Shown here in pieces: positions 41,850 through 53,634 of a stretch of 57,197 nt of DNA. Numbering within the stretch: the first letter of the stretch is position 1; the number at the start of each line of letters is the position of its first letter. Origin of the DNA: Anaerolineales bacterium (GTDB taxonomy: Bacteria > Chloroflexota > Anaerolineae > Anaerolineales > RBG-16-64-43); the NCBI GenBank assembly GCA_016932475.1, contig JAFGCU010000042.1, positions 1 through 57,197 of the forward strand. The letters are read 5' to 3'. Below the pieces are notes generated by a model that worked only from the letters and a program-made list of their open reading frames with translations, was not told the origin of the DNA and ran no database searches. The position numbers and the translations under genes are program-made.

Positions 41850-42455
41850 TTGACGGCGGAGCAGGCAGGGAATATCGGTCTCGGGTTTCTCCTGGTTTGG
41901 CTGGCGGTGGAGACCCTGTGGGACCTTAAAAAATCGGTAATTCTCCCCTTATGGCTGGTTTTCCCGCCTGTCCTGGCGGGATTGGCCTATCAAGCCGTAT
42001 TCGGGAAGTGGTATATCGCCGCGGCGATCGGGATGGCCCTGCTGTTGCATCTCTCCGACAAACTTCTGATCCGGGGAGCGGGGACGGCCATCATGCTTGC
42101 GGCGTCGGCCCTGTCGGGCCATTGGGCCCTGGCCGCCGGATTGGTCCTGTACTGGGTGCTTTGGGAAGCGAACATCGCAGGCGGCGCGGATGCGCTTGCG
42201 GCGTACGCCGCCCTGATGCTCTTCCCGCGCTGGGAGATGTTCGGATTTCTGCTCCTGGGTATTTTGCTCTGGGCGGTGGTCACCATGGTCGTGGTGTACC
42301 GGGGATTGCTGGCGGAACGCTGGAAGCAGATGGCGTACCGCCTGATGCTCCGCCAACTGCCGACCGAGGCCGAATTGAACACCGAAGGCCGGCCGACGAT
42401 CGGCGGGGTCTGGCTGGGGGTGGCGCTGTTTGCGGTGTGGGCGGTGACCACATGA
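41850..42455 (+). CDS. Prepilin peptidase (A24 family, TadV/CpaA-like)
   Basis: This inner-membrane aspartic peptidase cleaves and methylates type IV-like prepilins. The 201-aa protein has about six hydrophobic segments with the two family aspartates: Asp25 (TLWDLKKSVI) and Asp114 in GGAD, a variant of GxGD. It starts at a TTG (41850) with GGGAGGG four bases upstream. It opens a gene order typical of Tad pili, followed 40 bp later by TadZ. The substrates are presumably the three Flp prepilins and the TadE/TadG proteins downstream. Confidence 0.85.
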   Translation: MTAEQAGNIGLGFLLVWLAVETLWDLKKSVILPLWLVFPPVLAGLAYQAVFGKWYIAAAIGMALLLHLSDKLLIRGAGTAIMLAASALSGHWALAAGLVLYWVLWEANIAGGADALAAYAALMLFPRWEMFGFLLLGILLWAVVTMVVVYRGLLAERWKQMAYRLMLRQLPTEAELNTEGRPTIGGVWLGVALFAVWAVTT

Positions 42456-42495: not shown

Positions 42496-43557
42496 ATGCT
42501 GAATTTTTTACGGCGCAAGCCGAAACAGAGCGACAAACTGATTGTCCTCCTGGCATCGCAGAACCCGGATCCGAAACTGGTCGATGTGTTGGCCAAACGG
42601 CAGGAGATCATCATGCGCGAAACGTTCACCACCCGCGGCGTGATCCGCGGGCTGCCGGACGCGGATCTGGTCGTGCTCGGAGACGTCATCCCGCTGTGGG
42701 ACGTCGACACTTCCCTGATGCAGAACACCCTCGAGGTCACCGGTATCCCCGTCACCACACCGGATCAGATGCTGTCACAGCCGGAGGAATGGATCTCGAC
42801 GGCGCGGCTGGCCAACCGCAAGAAGCTGCAATACCTCCCGGCGCGGTTCGTGCTGGTGGGCGGCTGGGCGGGCGGGGTGGGCAAATCCTGCCTGGCGCTG
42901 GCGATGGCCAAACGGTTCCGCGAGCGCAACCTCCCCACGGCGATTCTGGAAGCCAGCGAAGGCGGTTCCTACCTGGTCTCGCGCCTCGGGCCACAACTGC
43001 ACTCGTTGTACGACGTCCTGACCGGCGAGGACACGGCCACCGAGTGGGAGGGCGTCAAGCTGTATCCGATCGACCATCGCGCGTCGCAGGTCCTGGCCGA
43101 CGATCCGCGCCTGCCGGATTTCCTGGCCGGTTTAAAGAGGGGGTACACGCTGGTCGTGGTGGACGCCTCTCCCAGCCATCCCTTCTGGCCCCGGTTGCTG
43201 GATCTGGCGACCAACATCATCGTGGTTACCGCTCCGCGAGATGAATCCCTGTTCCAGGCGGAAACGCTGCTCAAGGAACTGGAACCGGTGCGCGCCTCGC
43301 GTCCGGAGCTTAAAATCCACTTAATCATGAATATGGTCCATTCCCTCGGCGAGCGGATCGGCATGTCGGGCATGGTCGCCGCGTCGATCCCCTACAACGA
43401 ACGCTGGGCTTCCCAGCTCGATCCGCGGATTGCGGATCCTCTCCTGAACATTTTGTATCCGGGCTGGATCTCGGGCCCGAACCCCAAGGCATTGCGGAAG
43501 CGGATCCTGGCGGCCAAATCCGGCGGGAAATCTCCAGAGAATTCCGGGAAGAAGTAG
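42496..43557 (+). CDS. TadZ/CpaE-like pilus localisation ATPase
   Basis: This 353-aa protein of the ParA/MinD superfamily places the Tad apparatus in the cell. Residues 1-110 form a receiver-like atypical domain (LIVLLASQNPDPKLVDVLAKR, ADLVVLGDVIP). The nucleotide fold follows with Walker A at 122-132, reading GGWAGGVGKSC. In ParA/MinD the loop is KGGVGKT/S; here the signature Lys is Ala125, as in several CpaE proteins. VVVDASPSHPF is the Walker B-like strand. It stands between tadV and cpaB genes. Confidence 0.87.
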   Translation: MLNFLRRKPKQSDKLIVLLASQNPDPKLVDVLAKRQEIIMRETFTTRGVIRGLPDADLVVLGDVIPLWDVDTSLMQNTLEVTGIPVTTPDQMLSQPEEWISTARLANRKKLQYLPARFVLVGGWAGGVGKSCLALAMAKRFRERNLPTAILEASEGGSYLVSRLGPQLHSLYDVLTGEDTATEWEGVKLYPIDHRASQVLADDPRLPDFLAGLKRGYTLVVVDASPSHPFWPRLLDLATNIIVVTAPRDESLFQAETLLKELEPVRASRPELKIHLIMNMVHSLGERIGMSGMVAASIPYNERWASQLDPRIADPLLNILYPGWISGPNPKALRKRILAAKSGGKSPENSGKK

Positions 43558-43583: not shown

Positions 43584-44261
43584 ATGGGACGCAGAATATT
43601 CGAAGCCGTCACGGGCATAATTCTTCTGGTTGTCGCGTTCGTCGCGGCCTACTTCTTCCAACAGGCGTATAAAAGCGGCGTGGAGTACCGGGCGCTTCCG
43701 GTGCCGGTGCAGGAGATCCCGCCGTACACGATGCTGACGGAAGAAATGTTCGAGTGGAAGGATTTCCCCAGCGCGCTCATCGGTGGATACGCAAGCACAC
43801 TCTCCCAGCTTACCGGCCGGATGGCCAATTCGCGGATTCCCGCCGGGCTGCCGATCCCGCTGGTGCTGATCAGCTCCCCGGAGGATTACCGCCTGGCGGA
43901 TCCATCGCTGGAAGTCCTCTCGATTCCCGTCTCGGCTCCCTCGGCGATCGGCGGCCAGATCCGGGAGGGGGACAACGTCAACATCTACCGGCTCCTCACG
44001 CCCGGCAGCCTGTTCATCCCGCTGGGCGGGAAGGATCCGATCATGGATTCGGTGACGCTCGTCGCCGAAAATATTCCGGTGGTCATGGTGATCGGAGATT
44101 CCGGCCGGTCGTCGAGTTCTTCCAGCGGCGTGCAGGAAGTTTCCGCCCGCATTCTGATCCTGGCGGTCACGGACGGGCAACGCGATGCGATCCTGACCCT
44201 GATGGGCGAGCTCAACAGCGGGGCCATCATGTGGGTCACGCTTGCGCCCATCGAAACCTGA
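43584..44261 (+). CDS. CpaB/RcpC-like pilus assembly protein
   Basis: This 225-aa protein has one N-terminal membrane segment (FEAVTGIILLVVAFVAAYFF) followed by an SAF-type beta domain (YRALPVPVQEIPPYTMLTEEMFEWKDFP, then NSRIPAGLPIPLVLI) and the RcpC/CpaB C-terminal stretch (LSIPVSAPSAIGGQIREGDNVNIYRL). CpaB acts as a periplasmic adaptor between the inner-membrane machine and the pilus. It is short for the family and lacks the LysM-like extensions of diderm versions. It begins 26 bp after tadZ. Confidence 0.86.
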   Translation: MGRRIFEAVTGIILLVVAFVAAYFFQQAYKSGVEYRALPVPVQEIPPYTMLTEEMFEWKDFPSALIGGYASTLSQLTGRMANSRIPAGLPIPLVLISSPEDYRLADPSLEVLSIPVSAPSAIGGQIREGDNVNIYRLLTPGSLFIPLGGKDPIMDSVTLVAENIPVVMVIGDSGRSSSSSSGVQEVSARILILAVTDGQRDAILTLMGELNSGAIMWVTLAPIET

Positions 44262-44288
44262 CGCATGGAAAGCGATCCGAGGGTATTC

Positions 44289-45617
44289 ATGGCGAAGGAT
44301 GAAACCTACGGCCTGCGGGAAATAGACCGGAAGGTGCTCCCGGAAGTCCAGGAGCACCTGGCGATGCGGAAAATCCGCCCGCCGGATTGGCGCGACGAGA
44401 CGCCCGATTCGCGCCAGAAGTTTTTCGACGCGGTGCGCGGGATCCTGATCTCCTCCGTCTCCCAGTCCGAACTGAACGAGATTGCGACCCGCCTGTGCGA
44501 CGCGCTGACCGGAGTGGGAATCCTCCAGCCGTTCCTGCGCCTGCAGGGGGTGGAGGAGATCTACGTCCGCGGCGGCCGGGTGGCGATGGAACGCAGCGGA
44601 CGGCTGGAGCACCTGGGAGAACTGGCTCCGGCCTCGTACTTCGAGCAGATGATCCGCCGGGTGGCCGACGCGACCGGAAAACCCCTCAGCCCGCTCAACC
44701 TCACGCTGCTGGTGGATCTGCCGGGCGGGGAGCGTTTCACCGCGCTCCTGCCGCCGCTCTCGGATTCGCCGGTGATCAACATCCGCTGCTTCGGCCGGAA
44801 TATGCGCGGGCTGGAAGACTTGGAGCGGGTGGGCACCTTCAATCGCCACATACCTCTGGTGAGCGGGTCGCTCGAGGATATCCGCGACCCGGACCTGCGG
44901 CGCAAAGTCAGCGGACAATCCTCCCCGGTGGCGCGTTACCTGGCCTGGGTGATGGCCACCCTGGCCGGAAGCGTGGTGTTCGCCGGACCGTTCAGTTCCG
45001 GCAAGACGACCCTTTTCAACGCGCTCAGCGATTACTTCCCGGTCGGGGATCCGGTGGCCGTTCTGGAGACGTTCCGCGAGATCCAGATGCGGCCGGAATC
45101 GTTCATGATGCGGGCGATCGCGCCCGCGGAAATCCTGCCGGGGGACACCCGGCGGATCACGATGGACGAAGTGCTCAACATCGTGTACACGCGGGCCAAC
45201 CCGCGCGCGATCATCCTCGGCGAGGTGGTATCTCCCGGCGAAGCGCTGCAGTTCCTGCGCGCGTCGAACCTCGGGCGCAGGGCGTTCACCACGATCCACG
45301 GCGGTTCGGTGGGCGCCGCGCTGCGGCGGCTGGAGGACCTGACGCTTTCCGCCCAGGATGGGCTGACCATGCGGGCGGTGCGGGAAATGGTCGTCAGCGG
45401 AATCGACCTCGTGGTGCTGATGTCGCAGGCCGCCAATCCGAAGGATCCGCGGGCGATCGACCGCTTTGTCGCGGAAATCACGCATATCGTCGACATCGAC
45501 GATAAAGGCGATTACATTACGGAGACGCTTTATCGCGGCGTGGAGGGCGCAGATGTAAGCCTGTACGGGAAGGCCTGGAAGGAAATCACGGGCGGGGATC
45601 CGGGGGGCGGGAAATGA
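44289..45617 (+). CDS. TadA/CpaF secretion ATPase
   Basis: This is the hexameric PilT/VirB11-type motor that powers pilus assembly. The 442-aa product has an N-terminal domain with YVRGGRVAMERSGRLEHLG and VINIRCFGR (all-alpha/PAS-like), then Walker A GPFSSGKTT, an Asp box (VLETFREIQM), Walker B RAIILGEV, and the His box TTIHGGSVGAALRRLEDL. Start 44289 is preferred for its GAGGG five bases upstream; ATG 44265 would add eight residues. TadB starts four bases before its stop. Confidence 0.93.
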   Translation: MAKDETYGLREIDRKVLPEVQEHLAMRKIRPPDWRDETPDSRQKFFDAVRGILISSVSQSELNEIATRLCDALTGVGILQPFLRLQGVEEIYVRGGRVAMERSGRLEHLGELAPASYFEQMIRRVADATGKPLSPLNLTLLVDLPGGERFTALLPPLSDSPVINIRCFGRNMRGLEDLERVGTFNRHIPLVSGSLEDIRDPDLRRKVSGQSSPVARYLAWVMATLAGSVVFAGPFSSGKTTLFNALSDYFPVGDPVAVLETFREIQMRPESFMMRAIAPAEILPGDTRRITMDEVLNIVYTRANPRAIILGEVVSPGEALQFLRASNLGRRAFTTIHGGSVGAALRRLEDLTLSAQDGLTMRAVREMVVSGIDLVVLMSQAANPKDPRAIDRFVAEITHIVDIDDKGDYITETLYRGVEGADVSLYGKAWKEITGGDPGGGK

Positions 45618-46537
45618 AATTGGGCCCGTACCAGCTGCTCTCCCTCGCCGCCGTCGCCTTTGGAATCGGTCTGTTCCTCTCAAGCCGCAGCCTGATTCTG
45701 CTGATGGAGGATGTGATCTTCGGCGTGTGGGATTGGCTTCTGCGCATCCTGCGGCCGGGCGCCCACCGTCTGCGCGACCTGGCGGCGGAAGCCCACTCCC
45801 CGAAGCTCGCCCAGACCATTTACGGAAAGGGGTTCGTCTCCCGGACGGGGATTGCGATCATGCGCTTCCCGTGGCCGATCCTGGTCGGCATGGGCCTGGC
45901 CGTATGGATACGGGATTGGATGCTATCCCCGATCATGATCATCATCGGGGCGGTGATCTCCTCCGCGCTTTTCTCCCGGATGAGCCGCCGGTTCTACAAC
46001 CAGCTGACCGACGAGCTGGAAATGCTGATCCTGCAATTCGTATCCCGCTACCCCCTGCGCAATTCGGTCGCGACCGCGCTTTCCGAGGCGGCCGACCAGC
46101 TTCCGGGCGGCCTACTGCGGGATGCGGCCGCCGGCACGGCCACCCGCCTGAAGCTCCAGGCCGGCGGCAATCCCTACCGCGATCTGGTCGCGGTGCCGCA
46201 TCCGGTGGCGCGGCGGTTCGCGGGCGTGCTGATGCGGGCCGGGATGGCATCGCCGGAAGTGTTCCTCGACCTGCTCGGACAGCTGCGCAAAGACACCGAA
46301 AGCCGCCGCGAACTGCAGCAGCGCGTCCGCCGGGATCTGACGCTCGAATCCGCCACCATCACGATCCTTCAGGTGGTTCTGATCGCCAGCCTGATCGCCG
46401 TCGCGCTGATCCCCTCCTGGAAAGTGTATTACGTGGGATCGGTCGGGAACCGGATTGTGTATCTGCTCCTGGTCGGCATGGGAATTCTCGGGACGGTGAT
46501 CGGGGAGAATGAAGTGCGCTACCTGGAGGAAGCCTGA
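45614..46537 (+). CDS. TadB-like inner-membrane platform protein (T2SSF domain)
   Basis: This 307-aa integral membrane protein is one of two platform subunits that join the TadA motor to the pilus. It has two N-terminal hydrophobic segments (LLSLAAVAFGIGLFLSS; PWPILVGMGLAVWIRDWML), a cytoplasmic helical T2SSF region with ELEMLILQFVSRYPLRNSVATALSEAADQLPGG and AGMASPEVFLDLLGQLRKDTESRRELQQRVRRDLT, and two C-terminal membrane segments. The start overlaps the TadA stop as ATGA, and its own TGA overlaps tadC as TGATG. Confidence 0.88.
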   Translation: MKLGPYQLLSLAAVAFGIGLFLSSRSLILLMEDVIFGVWDWLLRILRPGAHRLRDLAAEAHSPKLAQTIYGKGFVSRTGIAIMRFPWPILVGMGLAVWIRDWMLSPIMIIIGAVISSALFSRMSRRFYNQLTDELEMLILQFVSRYPLRNSVATALSEAADQLPGGLLRDAAAGTATRLKLQAGGNPYRDLVAVPHPVARRFAGVLMRAGMASPEVFLDLLGQLRKDTESRRELQQRVRRDLTLESATITILQVVLIASLIAVALIPSWKVYYVGSVGNRIVYLLLVGMGILGTVIGENEVRYLEEA

Positions 46538-47343
46538 TGTCCATCCGGGTGTTCTCCTGGCTGCTGTTCATTTTCTTCGGGGTGGGCATCGCGCTCATCC
46601 TGTTCAGCATTTTTCGTTTTCTGACGGATATGTTCCAATGGATGCGGAAACCGAAGGGGATTCTCAGCCGGGCGACGGCGATGGCGGTAAGGGCGGAGAT
46701 CGCCCGGCGGCCCGGTTTCTGGATGGACGTCGATTTCCCGTGGCTGACAGCCTACCTGATCATCGCGCCGTTCATGGTGTTGTTGTGGTTCGCGCTGGAA
46801 GGGACCGCGTTCCAGCCATACTCCATCGGCGCGCTGCTGATCCCGGTTCTGGTGCGGCGGTGGATCCTGCGCCAGAAGCGGCGCGAAGCCGGCAACGAAA
46901 TCCGGCAGTTCCTGGTGGAATTGCGCCTGCAACTCTCCTCGGGTGGAACCCTGCGGCCTGCGCTGATGGCGGTGGCGCAGTACGGTCCGCCCAACCTCGG
47001 GCGCCTGCTGCGGCGGCGGCTGTCGAGCCAGGAAAACGGTGTCCAGGTCCTGAGGCATGTGGCCGACGACACCGGCAGCCGCTGGATCGCGGATGTCGCC
47101 GGCCGGGCGGAGGCGGCCCGCGACGGGATGTTGAATCTGGATGAGGCGGTCGCCCAGTCCATCGAACGCGTCACCGGCGAGATGGACACCGAGGTGCGCG
47201 AGGAACTGCAACGCATCCCGACCCGCCTGGTGGTCGTCGTCTCACCGCTCATCCTCGGACCGGCATTGGCCGCCTGGGTGCTTCCGGTTGTCGCCCAGAT
47301 GATCGCCAATTTGGAGGGAATCAACTTCTTTGAGACGTTTTAA
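46537..47343 (+). CDS. TadC-like inner-membrane platform protein (T2SSF domain)
   Basis: This 268-aa protein is the second platform subunit and partner of TadB. It has an N-terminal hydrophobic segment (FSWLLFIFFGVGIALILFSIFRFL), a second pair around residue 70-105, a cytoplasmic helical bundle with FLVELRLQLSSGGTLRPALMAVAQYGPPNLGRLLRRRL and SIERVTGEMDTEVREELQRIPTR, and a C-terminal membrane segment (VVVVSPLILGPALAAWVLPVVAQMIANLEG). It starts within the TadB stop. A 165-bp gap follows before the first pilin gene. Confidence 0.85.
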   Translation: MSIRVFSWLLFIFFGVGIALILFSIFRFLTDMFQWMRKPKGILSRATAMAVRAEIARRPGFWMDVDFPWLTAYLIIAPFMVLLWFALEGTAFQPYSIGALLIPVLVRRWILRQKRREAGNEIRQFLVELRLQLSSGGTLRPALMAVAQYGPPNLGRLLRRRLSSQENGVQVLRHVADDTGSRWIADVAGRAEAARDGMLNLDEAVAQSIERVTGEMDTEVREELQRIPTRLVVVVSPLILGPALAAWVLPVVAQMIANLEGINFFETF

Positions 47344-47472
47344 GGCTGTTTTTAGGGGGGAAAAGCATTGTTCTTACGATGTTTTTACTTCCCAACCGTG
47401 ATTGCCTGCTAAGATTGTCTACAGCCGGTACGAAACAAGTATGCCGGACCCGAATTCAGCAATTATGATACT

Positions 47473-47488
47473 GCCGGAAAAATCCGGC
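47473..47488 (+). promoter_or_regulatory. Hairpin just upstream of the first Flp prepilin gene
   Basis: A perfect stem GCCGGA/TCCGGC (47473-47478 and 47483-47488) with an AAAA loop lies nine bases before the AAAGGAG ribosome site of the pilin gene. It may stabilise the pilin mRNA 5' end after processing or control translation. This is inference from position. Confidence 0.45.
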
Positions 47489-47508
47489 GATGGAAAGGAG
47501 AAAAACCC

Positions 47509-47676
47509 ATGTTTACCCGAAAGCAGAGAGGTGCAAGTCTGGTGGAATGGATCGTCGTGGTCGTGGTTGTCGTCGCCGTTCTCGGCGCGGCCGCCATCGG
47601 CATCGCCGAAGTCACCAGCGGCAAAGCGGGCGAAGTAGAGACCTGGATTGAAGGCCTCGCCACCCCGGTGCCCTAA
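47509..47676 (+). CDS. Flp-type prepilin 1
   Basis: This tiny protein (55 aa) is the pilus subunit of the Tad system. It begins MFTRKQRG-ASLVEW. The prepilin peptidase would cut after Gly8, leaving Ala+1 and Glu+5, and the hydrophobic stretch IVVVVVVVAVLGAAAIGIA follows as the polymerisation helix. Flp motifs usually read G/XXXXE(F/Y); here the residue after Glu is Trp. A strong AAAGGAG precedes the ATG. It is one of three prepilins and carries a longer charged tail (GKAGEVETWIEGL). Confidence 0.83.
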   Translation: MFTRKQRGASLVEWIVVVVVVVAVLGAAAIGIAEVTSGKAGEVETWIEGLATPVP

Positions 47677-47748
47677 ACAGTCGGTCCTGGAATTGCCGAT
47701 CCGCCGGAGTTGCCATGAAGGCGGATAACAGTTGATCGGATCCCTTGG

Positions 47749-47790
47749 TCGGATGGATGGCCTCGCTGCAGTAAAGAGACATCCATCCGA
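47749..47790 (+). promoter_or_regulatory. Hairpin between the first and second Flp genes
   Basis: A perfect 11-bp stem TCGGATGGATG/CATCCATCCGA (47749-47759 and 47780-47790) has a 20-base loop. With only TTAAGG after the stem it is not a classical terminator. It could be an attenuator or a 3' stabiliser that raises flp1 mRNA above flp2. Confidence 0.55.
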
Positions 47791-47820
47791 TTAAGGATTC
47801 AGGGATAAGGAAGGACCAGG

Positions 47821-47970
47821 ATGCTAGCAGACCGCAGAGGGGCCGATTTGGTGGAATGGATCGTCGGGGTGGTCATTGTCCTCGGCGTGGTCGGCGCATC
47901 GGTGTACTCGTTATTCCAGACTCTGGGTGGGGAGTTCACGGAACTCGACAACGCCATCTCCGTTCCATAA
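47821..47970 (+). CDS. Flp-type prepilin 2
   Basis: This 49-aa prepilin has N-terminus MLADRRG-ADLVEW, cleavage predicted after Gly7, Glu at +5, and a hydrophobic helix IVGVVIVLGVVGASVYSLF. The following residue is Trp, as in prepilin 1. Its tail is acidic (GGEFTELDN). A ribosome site AAGGA lies upstream, and a hairpin separates it from prepilin 1. The relation between the three pilins suggests a duplicated gene that has diverged. Confidence 0.78.
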   Translation: MLADRRGADLVEWIVGVVIVLGVVGASVYSLFQTLGGEFTELDNAISVP

Positions 47971-47993
47971 TGCATGGAGAGAGGAATAACACG

Positions 47994-48140
47994 ATGATTC
48001 GCAGAAGCAGGGGGGCCAGCATGGTGGAATACATTGTCCTGCTCGTCCTGATCGCAGGATTGGTTGGCGGAGCGGTGCTCGCGCTTTCCAACACCATAAA
48101 CACGAATATTTCCAACGCCTACAATAATCTGGGTTCGTAG
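47994..48140 (+). CDS. Flp-type prepilin 3
   Basis: This 48-aa prepilin reads MIRRSRG-ASMVEY, with Gly7 at the cleavage site, Glu+5 and the canonical Tyr+6. The hydrophobic helix is IVLLVLIAGLVGGAVLAL, and the tail is Asn-rich (NTINTNISNAYNNLG), which looks like a standard Flp C-terminus. It begins 24 bp after the prepilin 2 stop with an AGGAA site. Of the three, it is closest to the usual Flp major pilin. Confidence 0.84.
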   Translation: MIRRSRGASMVEYIVLLVLIAGLVGGAVLALSNTINTNISNAYNNLGS

Positions 48141-48152
48141 GAAGAGGACGGG

Positions 48153-48674
48153 ATGCCGAGCCGGGTAGTCTGGATGAGCCGAGGATCTTGGGGGCTTTCC
48201 ATTCGGGAAGCATGCTTTTTCCCGCCGGGAGGCGGCGCCCGCCGTTTCCGGAGCCCGCGGCATGGTCAGGCGTCGCTGGAAGTATTGATCGTCCTCCTCC
48301 TTCTGATCCCCCTCATTTTCGGAGCCTTTGCCCTTTCCCGGGGCGTGGCCATCAAATCCTCTCTGGATTCCGGCGTGGCGGTTGCGGTGCGGGCGCTTTC
48401 GCTGGATCCCTCCAATTGGACCTTCGCGTCGAATGCGGTCACTACGACCGTTGCGCAGAATGTCTTTGGAGGCAGCGGTCTGGGCCCCATCCATTTCGAA
48501 GCGTATAACTCCTCCGGAGCACAACTTTTCGAATCGACCTTCGACGACCTCGTGCTTGGCGATGGTTTTTATATTGTTGCCTGGGTGGTGTACAGCCCGC
48601 AGGTCCCATTGCTGCCCCTCGCGCCCATCACCCTTCGGGCCCGGCATTACGGCATAGTGGAAAGGGTCGACTGA
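48153..48674 (+). CDS. TadE-like pseudopilin
   Basis: This 173-aa minor pilin or pseudopilin has a short basic N-terminus, then HGQASLEVLIVLLLLIPLIFGAFALSRGVAIKSSLDSG, the TadE type: Gly-Gln-Ala-Ser-Leu-Glu before a single hydrophobic helix. The rest (about 110 residues) is extracytoplasmic with Ser/Thr and Gly. The prepilin peptidase probably processes it. It is encoded 12 bp after prepilin 3 and one base before the TadG-like gene. Confidence 0.82.
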   Translation: MPSRVVWMSRGSWGLSIREACFFPPGGGARRFRSPRHGQASLEVLIVLLLLIPLIFGAFALSRGVAIKSSLDSGVAVAVRALSLDPSNWTFASNAVTTTVAQNVFGGSGLGPIHFEAYNSSGAQLFESTFDDLVLGDGFYIVAWVVYSPQVPLLPLAPITLRARHYGIVERVD

Positions 48675-48675
48675 A

Positions 48676-49293
48676 ATGCAGCCCGCTGGGATATTCCGCC
48701 GGGCGGCCGCGGGCCGGTCGTATCGGTTCCGGAAAACACCGCGCGGCCAGATCCTTGTCCTGGCCTTAATCTTCATTATGATGTTTTTTCTGGTGGCGGT
48801 GGCGCTGATCGACGTCTACAGCGTGACGGAAGCGCGCGCCTGGGGCTACCGGGCGGCGCAGGCGGCGGCGCTGGCCGGAGCCTCGAGGACGACAGGCGGC
48901 TGGATCTTCTATCAACCGACGGTCGACCCTTCACTGCCGACTCCGACACCGCGCTCGGATAATTGCATGGATCCGGTCCGGGCCGAATTGGATCCGGTCC
49001 TGGCCGCGGACGCCGCCTATGCCATGCTCGACCAGGAGATGCAGGCCCGGGGGTTTGCCTACAACTATGAAATCCGTGTCCTGCCGGATTTTACCGGGGG
49101 AACGACGGTCGGCTGGCCGCCGGGATCGGCGCGGCTGGGCGGCGGGGATTGGAGTTCGGCGGAACCGGCGGTGGGCGTGTATCTCTGGTTCGACGTGCAT
49201 ACCTTCCTGAGCGGGATTGTTGGACGCTCCTCGGTAACCGTTCACGTCTTTGCCGCCGCCGGAGTGGCCCAGCCGCTGGTTTGCCCGCCTTGA
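48676..49293 (+). CDS. TadG-like pilus-associated protein
   Basis: This 205-aa protein has RGQILVLALIFIMMFFLVAVALIDVYSVTEARAW near the N-terminus, the TadG/TadE_N pattern (Gly-Gln then a hydrophobic helix), and an extracytoplasmic remainder containing PTPTPR and several aromatic strands. TadG-like proteins sit at the envelope interface of Tad pili. The full TadG von Willebrand domain is absent, so this is a short version. The ATG lies one base beyond the TadE stop. Confidence 0.72.
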   Translation: MQPAGIFRRAAAGRSYRFRKTPRGQILVLALIFIMMFFLVAVALIDVYSVTEARAWGYRAAQAAALAGASRTTGGWIFYQPTVDPSLPTPTPRSDNCMDPVRAELDPVLAADAAYAMLDQEMQARGFAYNYEIRVLPDFTGGTTVGWPPGSARLGGGDWSSAEPAVGVYLWFDVHTFLSGIVGRSSVTVHVFAAAGVAQPLVCPP

Positions 49294-49311
49294 TTTAAGA
49301 GGTAGTTATTG

Positions 49312-50628
49312 ATGAATGCGCAACCAAACATCCAACCATTCCAGAACAAGCACCGTCGCAGCGGGGTATTTTGGATTGCCGGAGCGGTTTTATTTATCGC
49401 TCTATGCGGTGGATTGACCGCACCGGGCGGAGTCCGTCCGGCGCGGGCGCAGGGGACCACGCCGACCTTTACGCCCCCGACTCCATCCACCTGCATGTAC
49501 ATCCAGTACGCCTACGTGACCGAGACATCGGTCGTGGTCGGCGTGAATAACAACACCGGGAGTACGACCCGCCTTTCCAGAGCGACCCTCGACTGGCCGT
49601 CGGGCCTGGGGGGTAGCGGCGGGGATTACGTGGATTATTTCCGATTCGGGGGAGCCCAATTTTATAATGGGAATGCCACCGTTCCGCCGACAAGCAGAAA
49701 CGTCAGCAACAGCGCCACCTACCAGATCACCCCCGGCCAGACGCGCGATTTCACCGCCGCCTTCGGGGCGGTGCCGCTGAATCGGCCGCTGTATGGATCC
49801 TTTACCGCCACCCTCAACTTCCGAAACGGTTGCAGCGTTTCCATCACCGTGACCCGCGAGCCGCCCCCGTCGGATTGCGCCACGGTGATCAATGCCTACC
49901 TGAGCGGGACAAGTATTTATTATGTCGTATACAACAATCTGGGAGCGAGCACTTACTTCCAAAGCGCGGACCTGGACTGGCCGGATATTCCGAGCCCGAA
50001 CCGTTATGTGAATTACTTCCGCTGGGGGACCGATCAGTTCTACGGCGTCAATGATTACAGCCCGCCCACCTTCGCGACCGATCCGACCCCGGATTATTTT
50101 GCCGCAGGCCAAACCTCTTTCTTCATGGTCAATTTTGGGAACGCCGGGACCCTCGAAGGGGATTTCAAGGTGAGCTTGAATTTCTCCTCCTGTTCCACAA
50201 CCCATACTTTCTCACGATGGGTAACCGTCACCCCCACCCCGACCGCCACCCCGACCGTGACCGCAACCACGATCCCCCTGGCGGGCGCTTCCACCGTCCA
50301 GTTTGCCGCGTTGCTATTAAATGCCCATGATTTCGGGCTTGATGCGCAGACGATCCGGGGCCGGGTTTTGGGGGGAGGCGGGCCGCCCTATACCGTTGTC
50401 ATTTCGGTCGAAGATCCCGACGGCACCATCGCGACGTACAATCAAAATGTGGAGTTGGATGGAACCTTCGAACTGATCCCGTCCGAGACGGGCAATGATA
50501 ATTTCGGCTGTGACAAAGAGGGAATCTGGGAAACCTGGTTCGTTGTAACCGACAGCGTCGGCGGAACAGCCACCAGCAGTATTACCTCCTGGGCGGTTAA
50601 TTTCCCGCGTTCGCACGGAATACCGTGA
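49312..50628 (+). CDS. Secreted protein with internal duplication at the end of the pilus operon
   Basis: This 438-aa exported protein has a signal peptide at 1-48 ending in ARAQG. It then has two related repeats of about 120 residues (61-182 and 189-305), each with a YAYV/NAYL opening, an LDWP word, a DYVDYFRFGGAQFYNGN/RYVNYFRWGTDQFYGVN block, and one Cys near each end (61/174 and 189/294), which could form a disulfide. A TPTPTATPTVTAT linker leads to a C-terminal beta-rich domain. It starts 19 bp after the TadG-like gene and ends at a terminator, so it belongs to the operon. A pilus tip or adhesin role is inferred. Confidence 0.62.
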   Translation: MNAQPNIQPFQNKHRRSGVFWIAGAVLFIALCGGLTAPGGVRPARAQGTTPTFTPPTPSTCMYIQYAYVTETSVVVGVNNNTGSTTRLSRATLDWPSGLGGSGGDYVDYFRFGGAQFYNGNATVPPTSRNVSNSATYQITPGQTRDFTAAFGAVPLNRPLYGSFTATLNFRNGCSVSITVTREPPPSDCATVINAYLSGTSIYYVVYNNLGASTYFQSADLDWPDIPSPNRYVNYFRWGTDQFYGVNDYSPPTFATDPTPDYFAAGQTSFFMVNFGNAGTLEGDFKVSLNFSSCSTTHTFSRWVTVTPTPTATPTVTATTIPLAGASTVQFAALLLNAHDFGLDAQTIRGRVLGGGGPPYTVVISVEDPDGTIATYNQNVELDGTFELIPSETGNDNFGCDKEGIWETWFVVTDSVGGTATSSITSWAVNFPRSHGIP

Positions 50629-50641
50629 TCCCCCTCCTATT

Positions 50642-50690
50642 CCTCCCCCATTAGCCAAAGATCCGATGCGGCCAACGGGGGAGGTTTTCT
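50642..50690 (+). terminator. Terminator of the Tad pilus operon
   Basis: CCTCCCCCATTAGCC (50642-50656) pairs with GGCCAACGGGGGAGG (50670-50684), 13 of 15 positions with G-U allowed at the rest, and TTTTCT follows. It lies 14 bp after the last gene's stop. The sequence is related to the palindrome at 53662-53737. Confidence 0.75.
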
Positions 50691-51496
50691 ATGAAGAATC
50701 CTCCCTCATTTGCTCCTAGAATGGTTTTTTTACTAACTATCCTTCTTGGTGCAAATGGGGGAAGAAACGGAGGGGATTCCTCTGTTGGCGGTTTGAACGG
50801 GGGATTTTTTATTAGGTTTCAAAACCACTGCCTATGGCAGTGAGTAGAATGAAAAGGTTCTACCAGTGAAGTGGAAATTTTTTTTAGGCTGAATAATCAT
50901 TTGACAATCGGGCTGATGTGTTCTCAAAGGATACAGGGAAAATACCGCATCATAGCCCGACTACCCTTCCCCCCAGGGTTCCTCCGTTTCAGAGGATGGT
51001 GCTAATCCCCCCATCCCGAAGGGATGGGGGGGAGCGATCTCGGGGGGGGGGGAACCGGGAAGGCTGCCCGGCAACGATAAATAGCCGGCAGGAGTGCACC
51101 TTCCAGGCGCGACGTTCTAAAGCATGCCCCGTCGTGATTGTAGACGGGGCCACCGTCTTTGGCGATGGTAATTTACTTCCAACCCAACCCCCTCGTCCTG
51201 TCTTCACCCAGGGAGATCTTCGGGGCTCAGACAACCCTTCCCTCGCTTCGCCCGAGGACACGCCCTGGGGCTGTCTACAAAGGAGCTTTCGACATCAACT
51301 TGATCGTCAAGCCCGGGTGTACCTGGCGGGCATCCACCCACTATTTTTAACCCTGGATTCCCGCTGAGAATACGCGGGAATGACGGCCCAGCCATGCCAA
51401 ATATCTTCCTGAAAAACCCAATCGAACACTTTTTGCACAGCCCCCGAGGAGAAGAGAGTGGGGGGGGTAGGACAGCGGTGGGTTTACAATAATCCT
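50691..51496. other. 806-bp intergenic region with repeats
   Basis: No gene or RNA was recognised. A hairpin CACTGCC/GGCAGTG lies at 50826-50842, a TTGACA at 50901 lacks a good -10, and 51107-51395 is a degenerate composite stem-loop repeat (ATGCCCCGTCGTG..., CCCGGGTGTACCTGGCGGGCATCC, GGGAATGACGG). GGGG-rich runs near 51045 and 51461 flank it. It precedes the archease gene. Confidence 0.45.
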
Positions 51497-51901
51497 ATGC
51501 CGCCCTTTGAAGAACTCGATCACACCGCCGACTGGTCCTTCCGCGCAAGCGCGCCCTCCCGTGAGGCGTTGTTTTTGGAAGCGGCGGATGCCCTGTATGA
51601 ACTCGGCGGCGTCAGGACGGTTCCGGATCCGGGCGCAAGCAGGACGCTCCATCTTGAGGCGGATGATCCGGAAAGTTTGCTCGTTTCGTGGTTGAACGAA
51701 CTGCTGTATCTGGCGGAACACGACCGCCTGGCGCTGCGGGAGCTGCGAATCGAATCCTTGACGGATATTTCCCTGCGGGTCTCCGGTCGGCCGGCGGAAA
51801 TTCTCGCGGTCGGAAAACATATCAAGGCGGCGACGTACAGCGGGTTGCATATCACCGAATCCGCGGGCGCTTGGCTGGCGACGGTCGTGCTAGACGTATA
51901 G
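51497..51901 (+). CDS. Archease, RtcB-activating protein
   Basis: Archease makes the tRNA/RNA ligase RtcB multiple-turnover and widens its NTP choice. The 134-aa protein shows the family layout: an N-terminal ELDHTADWSF (the usual DHTADVG, with the conserved Asp), WLNELLYL, and the C-terminal KAATYSGLHI and LDV ends that form the metal site. ATG 51497 is the natural family start; an earlier ATG at 51458 gives unlike residues. A TACAAT box seven bases before the start could mean a leaderless mRNA. RtcB is the next gene. Confidence 0.88.
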   Translation: MPPFEELDHTADWSFRASAPSREALFLEAADALYELGGVRTVPDPGASRTLHLEADDPESLLVSWLNELLYLAEHDRLALRELRIESLTDISLRVSGRPAEILAVGKHIKAATYSGLHITESAGAWLATVVLDV

Positions 51902-51915
51902 AAAGCAACCTAAGC

Positions 51916-51974
51916 CCGACGCCCTAACCCTCTTCCCCTTACCTTAAGGGAAGGGGGAGAGGAGGTTGGGTCAG
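51916..51974. repeat. Imperfect inverted repeat after the archease gene
   Basis: CCCTAACCCTCTTCCCCTT and the opposing AAGGGAAGGGGGAGAGGAGG form an imperfect long stem. It is a common type of CCCTCTCC-rich intergenic palindrome. It may reduce read-through into rtcB or only be a repeat. Confidence 0.55.
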
Positions 51975-52023
51975 GATTTATGGCATAAAAAAAAGGAAAA
52001 AATGACACATCTCAGCAAGAGTT

Positions 52024-52106
52024 CGTCATGCCGGCGTGAACTTAGCCGGCATCCACTGCTTCGTCGTAAAACACTGGACCCCGGCTTTAAGCACGCCGGG
52101 GTGACG
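52024..52106. repeat. Short composite stem-loop repeat (GTCATGCCGGC family)
   Basis: It runs CGTCATGCCGGCG...TAGCCGGCATCCA, then CTGGACCCCGGC...GCACGCCGGGGTGACG. Each half forms a hairpin, and the second half is a near copy of the end of the 26414-26626 element. It lies between archease and RtcB genes. Confidence 0.7.
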
Positions 52107-52182
52107 AGTAAAAAATCCTGTCCATCCTGAACCAATCCTGTAAATCCTGTCTATTTTCCCGGCGTGGAATGGCGTGGCGGAC

Positions 52183-53634
52183 ATGGCATCGAAAACCGAT
52201 TTCCATAAAATCGATGATTATCTCTGGGAACTTCCCGCATCCCACCGCGGAGAAATGCATACGGCGGTCCGGATAATCGCCGACGACGCACTGCTCGAGG
52301 ATGCGCTCGGCGATCTTTCCGTTGAGCAGGCCATGAATGTCGCCAGCCTCCCGGGGCTGGCGGGCAGGGTGGTGGTGATGCCGGACGTCCACCAGGGGTA
52401 CGGCATGCCGATCGGCGGCGTGATGGCGGCCCGGATCGGAGAAGGAATGATCTCGCCCGGCGCGGTCGGATACGACATCAATTGCGGCGTGCGGTTGCTC
52501 TCCTCCTCGATCGTCTTCGAGGAGGCCGAAGACAGACTCGCGGACCTGGCGACGGCGCTTTACCGAAATTGCCCGAGCGGGGTGGGGGAAAAGGGCAGCG
52601 TGCCCCTGACGGTGGACGAACTGGACCGGGTGTGCCGCGAGGGCGCGCGCTGGGCGCTGCGCAAGGGGTATGCGGACAGGAACGACGTGGATCGCACCGA
52701 GGAGGAAGGCTGCCTGGAGGGGGCGGATACGCAGCAGGTTTCGGCGCGCGCCAAAGAGCGCGGCCGCGGCCAGCTCGGGACGCTCGGGGCGGGGAATCAT
52801 TTTCTGGAAGTGGACGTGGTCGAGCGGATCTTCGATGCGCCGGCGGCCGCGGCGATGGGATTGCGCGAAGGGTGCCTCGCGCTGCAGATCCACTGCGGGT
52901 CGCGCGGGTTCGGTCACCAGATCTGCACCGATTATGTGCAGAGTTTTCAATCGGCCGTAAAGCGCTACGGGATCCGTCTGCCGGACCGCGAGCTGGTGTG
53001 CGCGCCGATTGATTCCGCCGAAGGGAGAGCCTATCTGGGGGCGATGAAAGCCGCCGCCAATTTTGCGTTCGCCAACCGTCAGGTGCTGGCCTTCCACGCC
53101 CGCCGGAGTTTTAAGGAAGTGTTCGGCGGAACAGGGATCCGCTGGCAGCTTTCACAGGTTTACGACCTCGCCCATAATATGGCCAAGATCGAAACCCATA
53201 CTATTGATGGGCGCAGGGAAAAAGTCTGTGTCCACCGCAAAGGCGCCACACGCGCCTTCGGCCCCGGCCACGAAGGTATTCCACTGGAGTTTAGGCCGCT
53301 TGGGCAGCCCGTGCTTGTTCCCGGCTCGATGGGAACCGCTTCCTGGGTGCTGCTCGGAACCGCCGGCAGCATGGAGCTTTCCTACGGTTCGTGCTGCCAC
53401 GGGGCGGGGCGGGTGATGAGCCGCGCCCAAGCCAAGCGCGAGGTGCGCGGCGACAGACTGCGCGGCGATCTTGAGCGGAGCGGTGTCCACATCCGCGCGG
53501 GTTCGCTGCCCGGGTTGGCGGAAGAAGCGCCGCAGGCCTACAAGGATGTGGACCGAGTGATCGCCGCCGTGTGCGGCGCGGGGATCGCGCGGAAAGTCGC
53601 CCGTTTGCGGCCGGTGGCGGTGGTGAAGGGATAG
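52183..53634 (+). CDS. rtcB: RNA-splicing ligase RtcB (3'-phosphate RNA ligase)
   Basis: RtcB seals 2',3'-cyclic phosphate or 3'-phosphate RNA ends to 5'-OH ends, using GTP and manganese. The 483-aa protein has the conserved stretches [31 protein letters not shown] (metal Cys), [12 protein letters not shown] (metal His), [33 protein letters not shown] and [11 protein letters not shown], where the His forms the GMP adduct. ATG 52183 (MASKTDF) is the usual start; a GTG at 52174 adds three residues. Archease lies about 280 bp upstream with repeats between them, so they may be separate transcripts. Confidence 0.96.

Follow-up and report, generated by a model that had tools for sequence, protein, structure and literature searches.

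Proteins of the PilC/PilY1 type have a variable N-terminal region, a constant C-terminal region and a Sec signal. At type IVa pili PilC/PilY1 is described as a non-pilin modular adhesin which caps the minor-pilin complex, and in a table of the same source the row for non-pilin tip-located effectors holds entries for T4aP, T2SS and T4bP only (PMC10191384). The tip subunits that two papers propose for Tad pili are pilins with grafted domains (PMC12075869, PMC12607857). In Myxococcus the Kil/Tad “Tip” complexes place exchangeable exposed domains at the Tad tip, the variable domain lying within the TadG/KilN minor pilin itself (PMC12075869), and this suggests by analogy that the domains displayed on a Tad pilus can be swapped. 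CpaL of Caulobacter is a candidate Tad tip subunit with a pilin module and a vWA domain (PMC12607857). A non-pilin Tad/Flp pilus tip protein was not found in the excerpts available from the literature on Tad tips, adhesins, PilY1 and Chloroflexota.

The window considered here is the whole stretch from position 1 to 57,197 of contig JAFGCU010000042.1 (GCA_016932475.1) of an Anaerolineales bacterium, whose genome is called G000 below. Its Tad operon ends in the gene for a protein, P0001, which on balance is probably a non-pilin, Sec-exported adhesin of the Tad pilus with its C-terminal domain docked on a TadE/TadG tip. This preference draws on gene adjacency and on the exchange of heads among relatives. 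Tip location, docking and adhesion are put forward by analogy, in the sense of a PilY1-like way of working and not of membership in the PilY1 family.

The Tad operon of the window

Genes like those for CpaF, TadB, TadC, CpaB, TadE and Flp lie in one run, a Tad operon, and since several of the matches fall below curated cut-offs the system is best taken as a divergent Tad. The features in window positions are:

41850-42455, + strand: candidate prepilin peptidase (PF01478 at E 0.41 only; labelled by position and by eye)
42496-43557, + strand: CpaE/TadZ-like (weak ParA-type matches, best E 0.03)
43584-44261, + strand: CpaB/RcpC-like (PF08666 E 1.6e-5, PF16976 E 5.7e-5)
44265-45617, + strand: CpaF/TadA-like ATPase (PF00437 E 2.5e-9; TIGR03819 E 9.6e-21, below cut-off)
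45614-46537, + strand: TadB-like platform protein (PF00482 E 0.006, below cut-off)
46537-47343, + strand: TadC-like platform protein (PF00482 E 0.0027, below cut-off)
47509-47676, + strand: third Flp-like ORF, RGASLVEWIV (PF07963 N_methyl E 8.9e-5)
47821-47970, + strand: second Flp-like ORF, RGADLVEWIV (sequence only)
47994-48140, + strand: Flp-type pilin candidate (PF04964 E 0.0013, below cut-off)
48153-48674, + strand: TadE-like minor pilin (PF07811 E 3.2e-5)
48676-49293, + strand: short TadG-like minor pilin, 205 aa (family alignment; weak NCBIfam TIGR03816, E 0.017)
49312-50628, + strand: P0001, CDS of 438 aa, modular and probably secreted (ATG at 49312, TGA ending at 50628)
50626-50800, + strand: strongly structured 3' region of the operon (RNA folding z −4.2)

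Among the three Flp-like ORFs (47509-48140) Flp_Fap is matched by one, weakly, and the three may be major and minor pilins. The P0001 gene starts 18 bp after the TadG-like gene on the same strand, with a Shine-Dalgarno-like AAGAGG just 5' of its ATG, and is present in a single copy in its own genome. An earlier note made from the sequence had described it as co-directional with the Tad genes, which is so, and as lying before a terminator, which is not borne out: where 5.6 terminator-like sites were expected in 47300-51500 a consensus scan gave 4, and none of the 4 directly follows the P0001 stop. The RNA just past that stop (50626-50800) is predicted to fold unusually strongly and holds no terminator-like site.

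In a genome of the same genus (G001) the Tad genes are arranged alike and are followed, as last gene, by a P0001 orthologue of 58% identity. These Tad genes are also present in a further genome of the family (G003), where the protein in the slot after TadG has only the C-terminal domain in common with P0001. The remaining two genomes of the family (G002, G004) gave no match to TadG or P0001. Archease and RtcB genes lie 3' of the Tad operon at 51458-53634, and likewise in G003. Further TadE genes of G000 are on contigs C25 (14120-14245, L198) and C44, including a 509-aa open frame on C25.

Architecture of P0001

The protein divides into an export signal, two copies of a domain here named LDWP, a linker and a C-terminal domain:

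49312-49449, + strand: putative Sec signal peptide, residues 1-46 (sequence and hydropathy; cleavage site by eye)
49480-49863, + strand: LDWP domain copy 1, residues 57-184, with Cys61 and Cys174 (repeat alignment; AlphaFold2 pLDDT 91.4)
49864-50226, + strand: LDWP domain copy 2, residues 185-305, with Cys189 and Cys294 (repeat alignment)
50221-50277, + strand: Thr-Pro linker, residues ~304-322 (sequence)
50263-50625, + strand: conserved C-terminal domain, residues 318-438, with a W.V.....H motif at the C-terminus (alignment of relatives)

The signal has an Arg-Arg pair, a hydrophobic stretch at about residues 16-41 and then ARA/QG (the slash marking the putative cleavage site), and so P0001 is probably secreted. 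Residues 1-46 contain no Glu, and so a class III motif with its Glu is absent; with no Pfam TadE match and no N-terminal pilin motif P0001 falls outside the TadE and class III (pseudo)pilins. The duplicated domain with matching Cys pairs that the earlier note had described is clearly present: residues ~58-183 and ~186-303 share 47 of 117 aligned residues with a BLOSUM62 score of 166, which is reached by 0 of 5000 shuffles of the second repeat (mean 32, maximum 64), and Cys61/Cys174 align with Cys189/Cys294. The Thr-Pro linker and the C-terminal region which follows it are likewise there. That region is beta-rich by the look of its sequence; a single-sequence model of the C-terminal domain alone reached a pLDDT of 45.8 and gives no usable fold.

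Scans of P0001 against Pfam (E<=1) and NCBIfam returned no match, neither the conserved C-terminal PilC domain nor a vWA domain being found by Pfam, and a search of PDB sequences with P0001 gave nothing above chance. A related-locus search with P0001 as the query found no relative. A search of 61 genomes recovered relatives in 12, its own included, with G003 found through the C-terminal domain only. The LDWP family is defined here by a Cys...N...W...Cys core and a profile match, both of which P0001 has; an alignment of 23 domains shows no variation at two Cys, at one Asn and at the Trp of LDWP.

A constant C-terminal domain with exchangeable heads

In the slot after TadG, G000 and G001 have LDWP heads and G003 has another head, which itself has no Pfam match, yet the C-terminal domain is 55% identical. 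Elsewhere a different head (alignment A10) is common to G195, G343, G310, G459 and G445, and its PDB matches, weak ones with a best E of 0.019, are neurexin and laminin G domains together with a GH16 glucanase; G317 has Trp-rich repeats in this place, and G360 and G455 carry other heads. Given a head that varies among relatives and a tail that does not, P0001 may be an interchangeable sticky part of the pilus.

Searches with the C-terminal domain, which is some 115-120 aa long, gave matches at E<=0.001 in 9 of 396 class genomes (profile A7) and in 6 of 400 phylum genomes (profile A8), each count including G000, G003 and one match later dropped. The matches set aside were L164, which is PKD-like (iE 7.7e-4), and L176, by eye a dehydrogenase (iE 1.1e-5). 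This leaves 14 credible loci in 12 genomes. TadE and TadG adjoin the gene at nine of these (the window, L017, L018, L159, L160, L161, L162, L163 and L171), and at L172 TadG lies about 1.5 kb upstream. The other four have no Tad match, namely L158 over its whole 19-kb contig, L175, and L173 and L174 on short contigs. With the seed loci (window, L017, L018) removed and L172 counted, Tad linkage is 7/11. The gene is 3' of TadG in the window, L017, L018, L159 and L171, and 5' of TadE in four loci from family f53 (L160-L163); the linkage has therefore outlived a change of gene order.

With the window TadE and TadG as phmmer queries both were matched at 5 of the 6 non-seed loci of the class (L158-L163), against no TadG and one TadE (L083) in the same scan of 38 LDWP loci. 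A TadG profile made solely from G000, G001 and G003 matched 8 of 303 genomes, six of them non-seed, and the C-terminal domain is present in four of the six (G195, G310, G317, G343), against 9 of 396 genomes overall, and absent from G167 and G249. A ten-locus TadG profile (A9) matched 11 of the 396 class genomes, and the C-terminal domain is present in seven of the 11; as A9 was built from TadG beside these very genes, the Fisher values obtained (4e-11, 3e-8) are circular and are not used. In three of the 11 TadG genomes (G249, G435, G167) no C-terminal-domain gene was found beside TadG in the available sequence, that of G167 being a 3.9-kb contig with a partial match. In G445 the contig stops about 0.5 kb past TadG, inside an ORF with head and linker, and 40 aa of a tail are found as a fragment on a different contig.

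Judged from these sequences, the C-terminal domain, which the earlier note had mentioned just as a beta-rich end, is the mark of a family of modular proteins that are linked to Tad and exchange their heads, and it offers a searchable marker for this part in Chloroflexota. Three copies occur in genome G455 (L172, L173, L174), in long multi-domain proteins with Thr-Pro linkers.

The LDWP domain and its partners

The LDWP domain has no name in Pfam or NCBIfam; Pfam matches to single members of profile A5 are scattered and weak (best E 6.4e-4). With a profile of 23 domains it turns up in 52 of the 396 class genomes, G000 being one of the 52. Its architectures were surveyed at 39 loci, being the LDWP-bearing ones of the 61-genome search plus the best-scoring 29 of the 51 other profile-positive genomes, which gave 43 domain ORFs, or 44 domain proteins counting P0001. 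Pfam TadE (PF07811, E<=0.01) is fused to LDWP in 24 of the 44, and three others (L075, L079, L085) have the prepilin N_methyl motif (PF07963), so that 27 carry a TadE or prepilin N-terminus; among the rest, L023, L058, L062 and L077 have an N-terminus cut by a contig end. These TadE-LDWP fusions of Anaerolineales share the domain and Thr-Pro linkers with P0001, and differ from it in that LDWP sits on a class III pseudopilin and part of them end in C-x-D-C; P0001 instead starts with a Sec-type signal and closes with another C-terminal domain.

Other partners are Ser/Thr kinase, PKD, SdrD_B/DUF11 and PQQ proteins; LDWP is thus a module that pilus proteins share with others. One Ser/Thr kinase (L026:6636-8498) has the domain at its C-terminal end, which suggests use as a sensor module. 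CpaF-, TadB-, TadC-, CpaB- or CpaE-like genes are found in none of the 38 LDWP loci other than L017 (about 6-19 kb each); LDWP as such is therefore not tied to Tad operons, and the TadE-LDWP genes there stand apart from a Tad operon. A second set of 33 LDWP proteins from genome contigs was fetched through TadE-region patterns and for that reason is left out of the evidence on TadE fusion. Proteins with LDWP and a Thr-Pro stalk end in C-x-D-C in 9 of the 43 domain ORFs (L020, L021, L022, L058, L065, L066, L069, L071, L083) and in 16 of the 33 in the second set; the terminal motif is possibly an anchor or cross-link.

The earlier suggestion that the protein is unique to its lineage thus fails for the LDWP domain and may still hold for the combination. 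The arrangement of two LDWP domains followed by the P0001 C-terminal domain was met, besides G000, in one congener alone, and may be lineage-unique.

The fold of the LDWP domain

The AlphaFold2 model of LDWP, made from 35 aligned domains, is all-beta and predicts a beta sandwich with a mean pLDDT of 91.4. With this model Foldseek places Sulfolobus FlaF first (E 2.4e-4), and eight of the first nine rows are FlaF, archaeal pilus or archaellum, row 2 being an unrelated Nocardia protein with an immunoglobulin-like fold. In VIA-align FlaG, FlaF and an archaeal pilus take the top six places, at Z 9.0 to 8.3, led by FlaG 5tuh (rmsd 2.8, 88 aligned, 24% identity), but unrelated chains start at 8.2, a lead of less than one Z unit. 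The structure prediction and search of one repeat that the earlier note proposed thus yields a beta sandwich and a ranking headed, by a small margin, by archaeal FlaF/FlaG and archaeal type IV filament subunits.

Profiles A1 and A5 do not list FlaF/FlaG at E<=10 among PDB sequences. Antibody heavy chains matched by A5 (best E 0.0011) are read as chance, since A1 lists just one antibody, at E 5.5, and no entry of a viral structure library was matched at E<=0.001. Given the small Z margin and the want of a PDB sequence match, what is claimed for LDWP is a resemblance of fold, not homology. The resemblance is an apt one because FlaF/FlaG are type IV filament subunits or accessory proteins and LDWP is mostly on pseudopilins in the proteins examined. 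LDWP would share with archaeal ArlF/ArlG (FlaF/FlaG) and with the subunits of archaeal type IV filaments an Ig-like sandwich, theirs being the best-ranked solved folds, but the operon context is another.

A proposed tip protein and its alternatives

P0001 resembles PilC/PilY1 in being a non-pilin with a putative Sec signal, a variable head and a constant C-terminus, encoded with minor pilins, and differs in having no Pfam match at all. In contrast to the Kil/Tad tips, TadG here is short (~165-205 aa) and the variable head is on a separate protein without a pilin motif; in contrast to CpaL, P0001 matches neither a pilin module nor a vWA domain. The modular architecture, the constant C-terminal domain with swapped heads, the TadE/TadG linkage and the LDWP-TadE fusions are features read from sequence, and the path from these to a working pilus part is conditional. 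A Sec-type route would export P0001. Its C-terminal domain would be the base, docked on the short tip complex formed by the TadE/TadG minor pilins, and the Thr-Pro linker would keep the head away from that base. The exchangeable head, which in the window's genus consists of two LDWP domains, would make the contacts outside. Elsewhere in the class the LDWP module is most often joined directly to TadE or prepilin N-termini. The earlier note had proposed a pilus-associated adhesin; its first half gains from the TadE/prepilin fusions (27/44) and the loci beside TadE/TadG (9/14), while adhesion we infer.

That the C-terminal domain might anchor P0001 to the wall or outer layer, as in a surface receptor for instance, and that the operon is shared for co-expression, seems unlikely, although a Sec-type signal with no pilin motif would suit a cell-envelope protein, and so would the Thr-Pro linker of P0001, such linkers being common on surface proteins. 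Profile A8 also resembles repeats in 6xi3, a large adhesion protein (four weak repeats with a summed E of 6.6e-6), but the best single repeat has an i-Evalue of 2.1 and homology is not claimed. Such a role leaves unexplained why the gene tracks TadE/TadG in families f1, f53, f58 and f73 and in two gene orders.

Rather improbable is that the Tad machinery secretes P0001 as an effector or enzyme with the C-terminal domain as export signal. A constant C-terminus with exchanged heads fits this too, as does the weak likeness of sibling heads to laminin-G/GH16 chains, and PulA (T2SS) and TcpF (T4bP) are given as non-pilin tip-located effectors (PMC10191384). However the Pfam scans of P0001, of sibling proteins and of their heads, which for G455 took in L172, turned up no enzyme family. 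An ArlF/ArlG-like stator or clamp, a non-pilin Ig-fold protein bracing the filament in the envelope without outside contact, is very improbable: ArlF/ArlG likewise are without class III signals and with Ig folds (PMC13319060) and FlaF tops Foldseek and FlaG VIA-align for LDWP, but siblings beside TadE/TadG carry unrelated heads in place of LDWP and no FlaF/FlaG sequence match was found among PDB sequences.

With P0001 read as a docked tip adhesin, a wider and more tentative proposal, held with somewhat less than even confidence, is that Chloroflexota Tad pili have an undescribed family of non-pilin tip adhesins, with a constant docking domain and heads swapped by lineage (LDWP, laminin-G-like, Trp-rich and others). 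If so, Tad (T4c) systems would gain the non-pilin tip effector for which no entry is given, and an exported protein of its own, constant at the base and swappable at the head, would be a second way to set what a Tad pilus touches, in a class across which LDWP recurs as a pseudopilin head.
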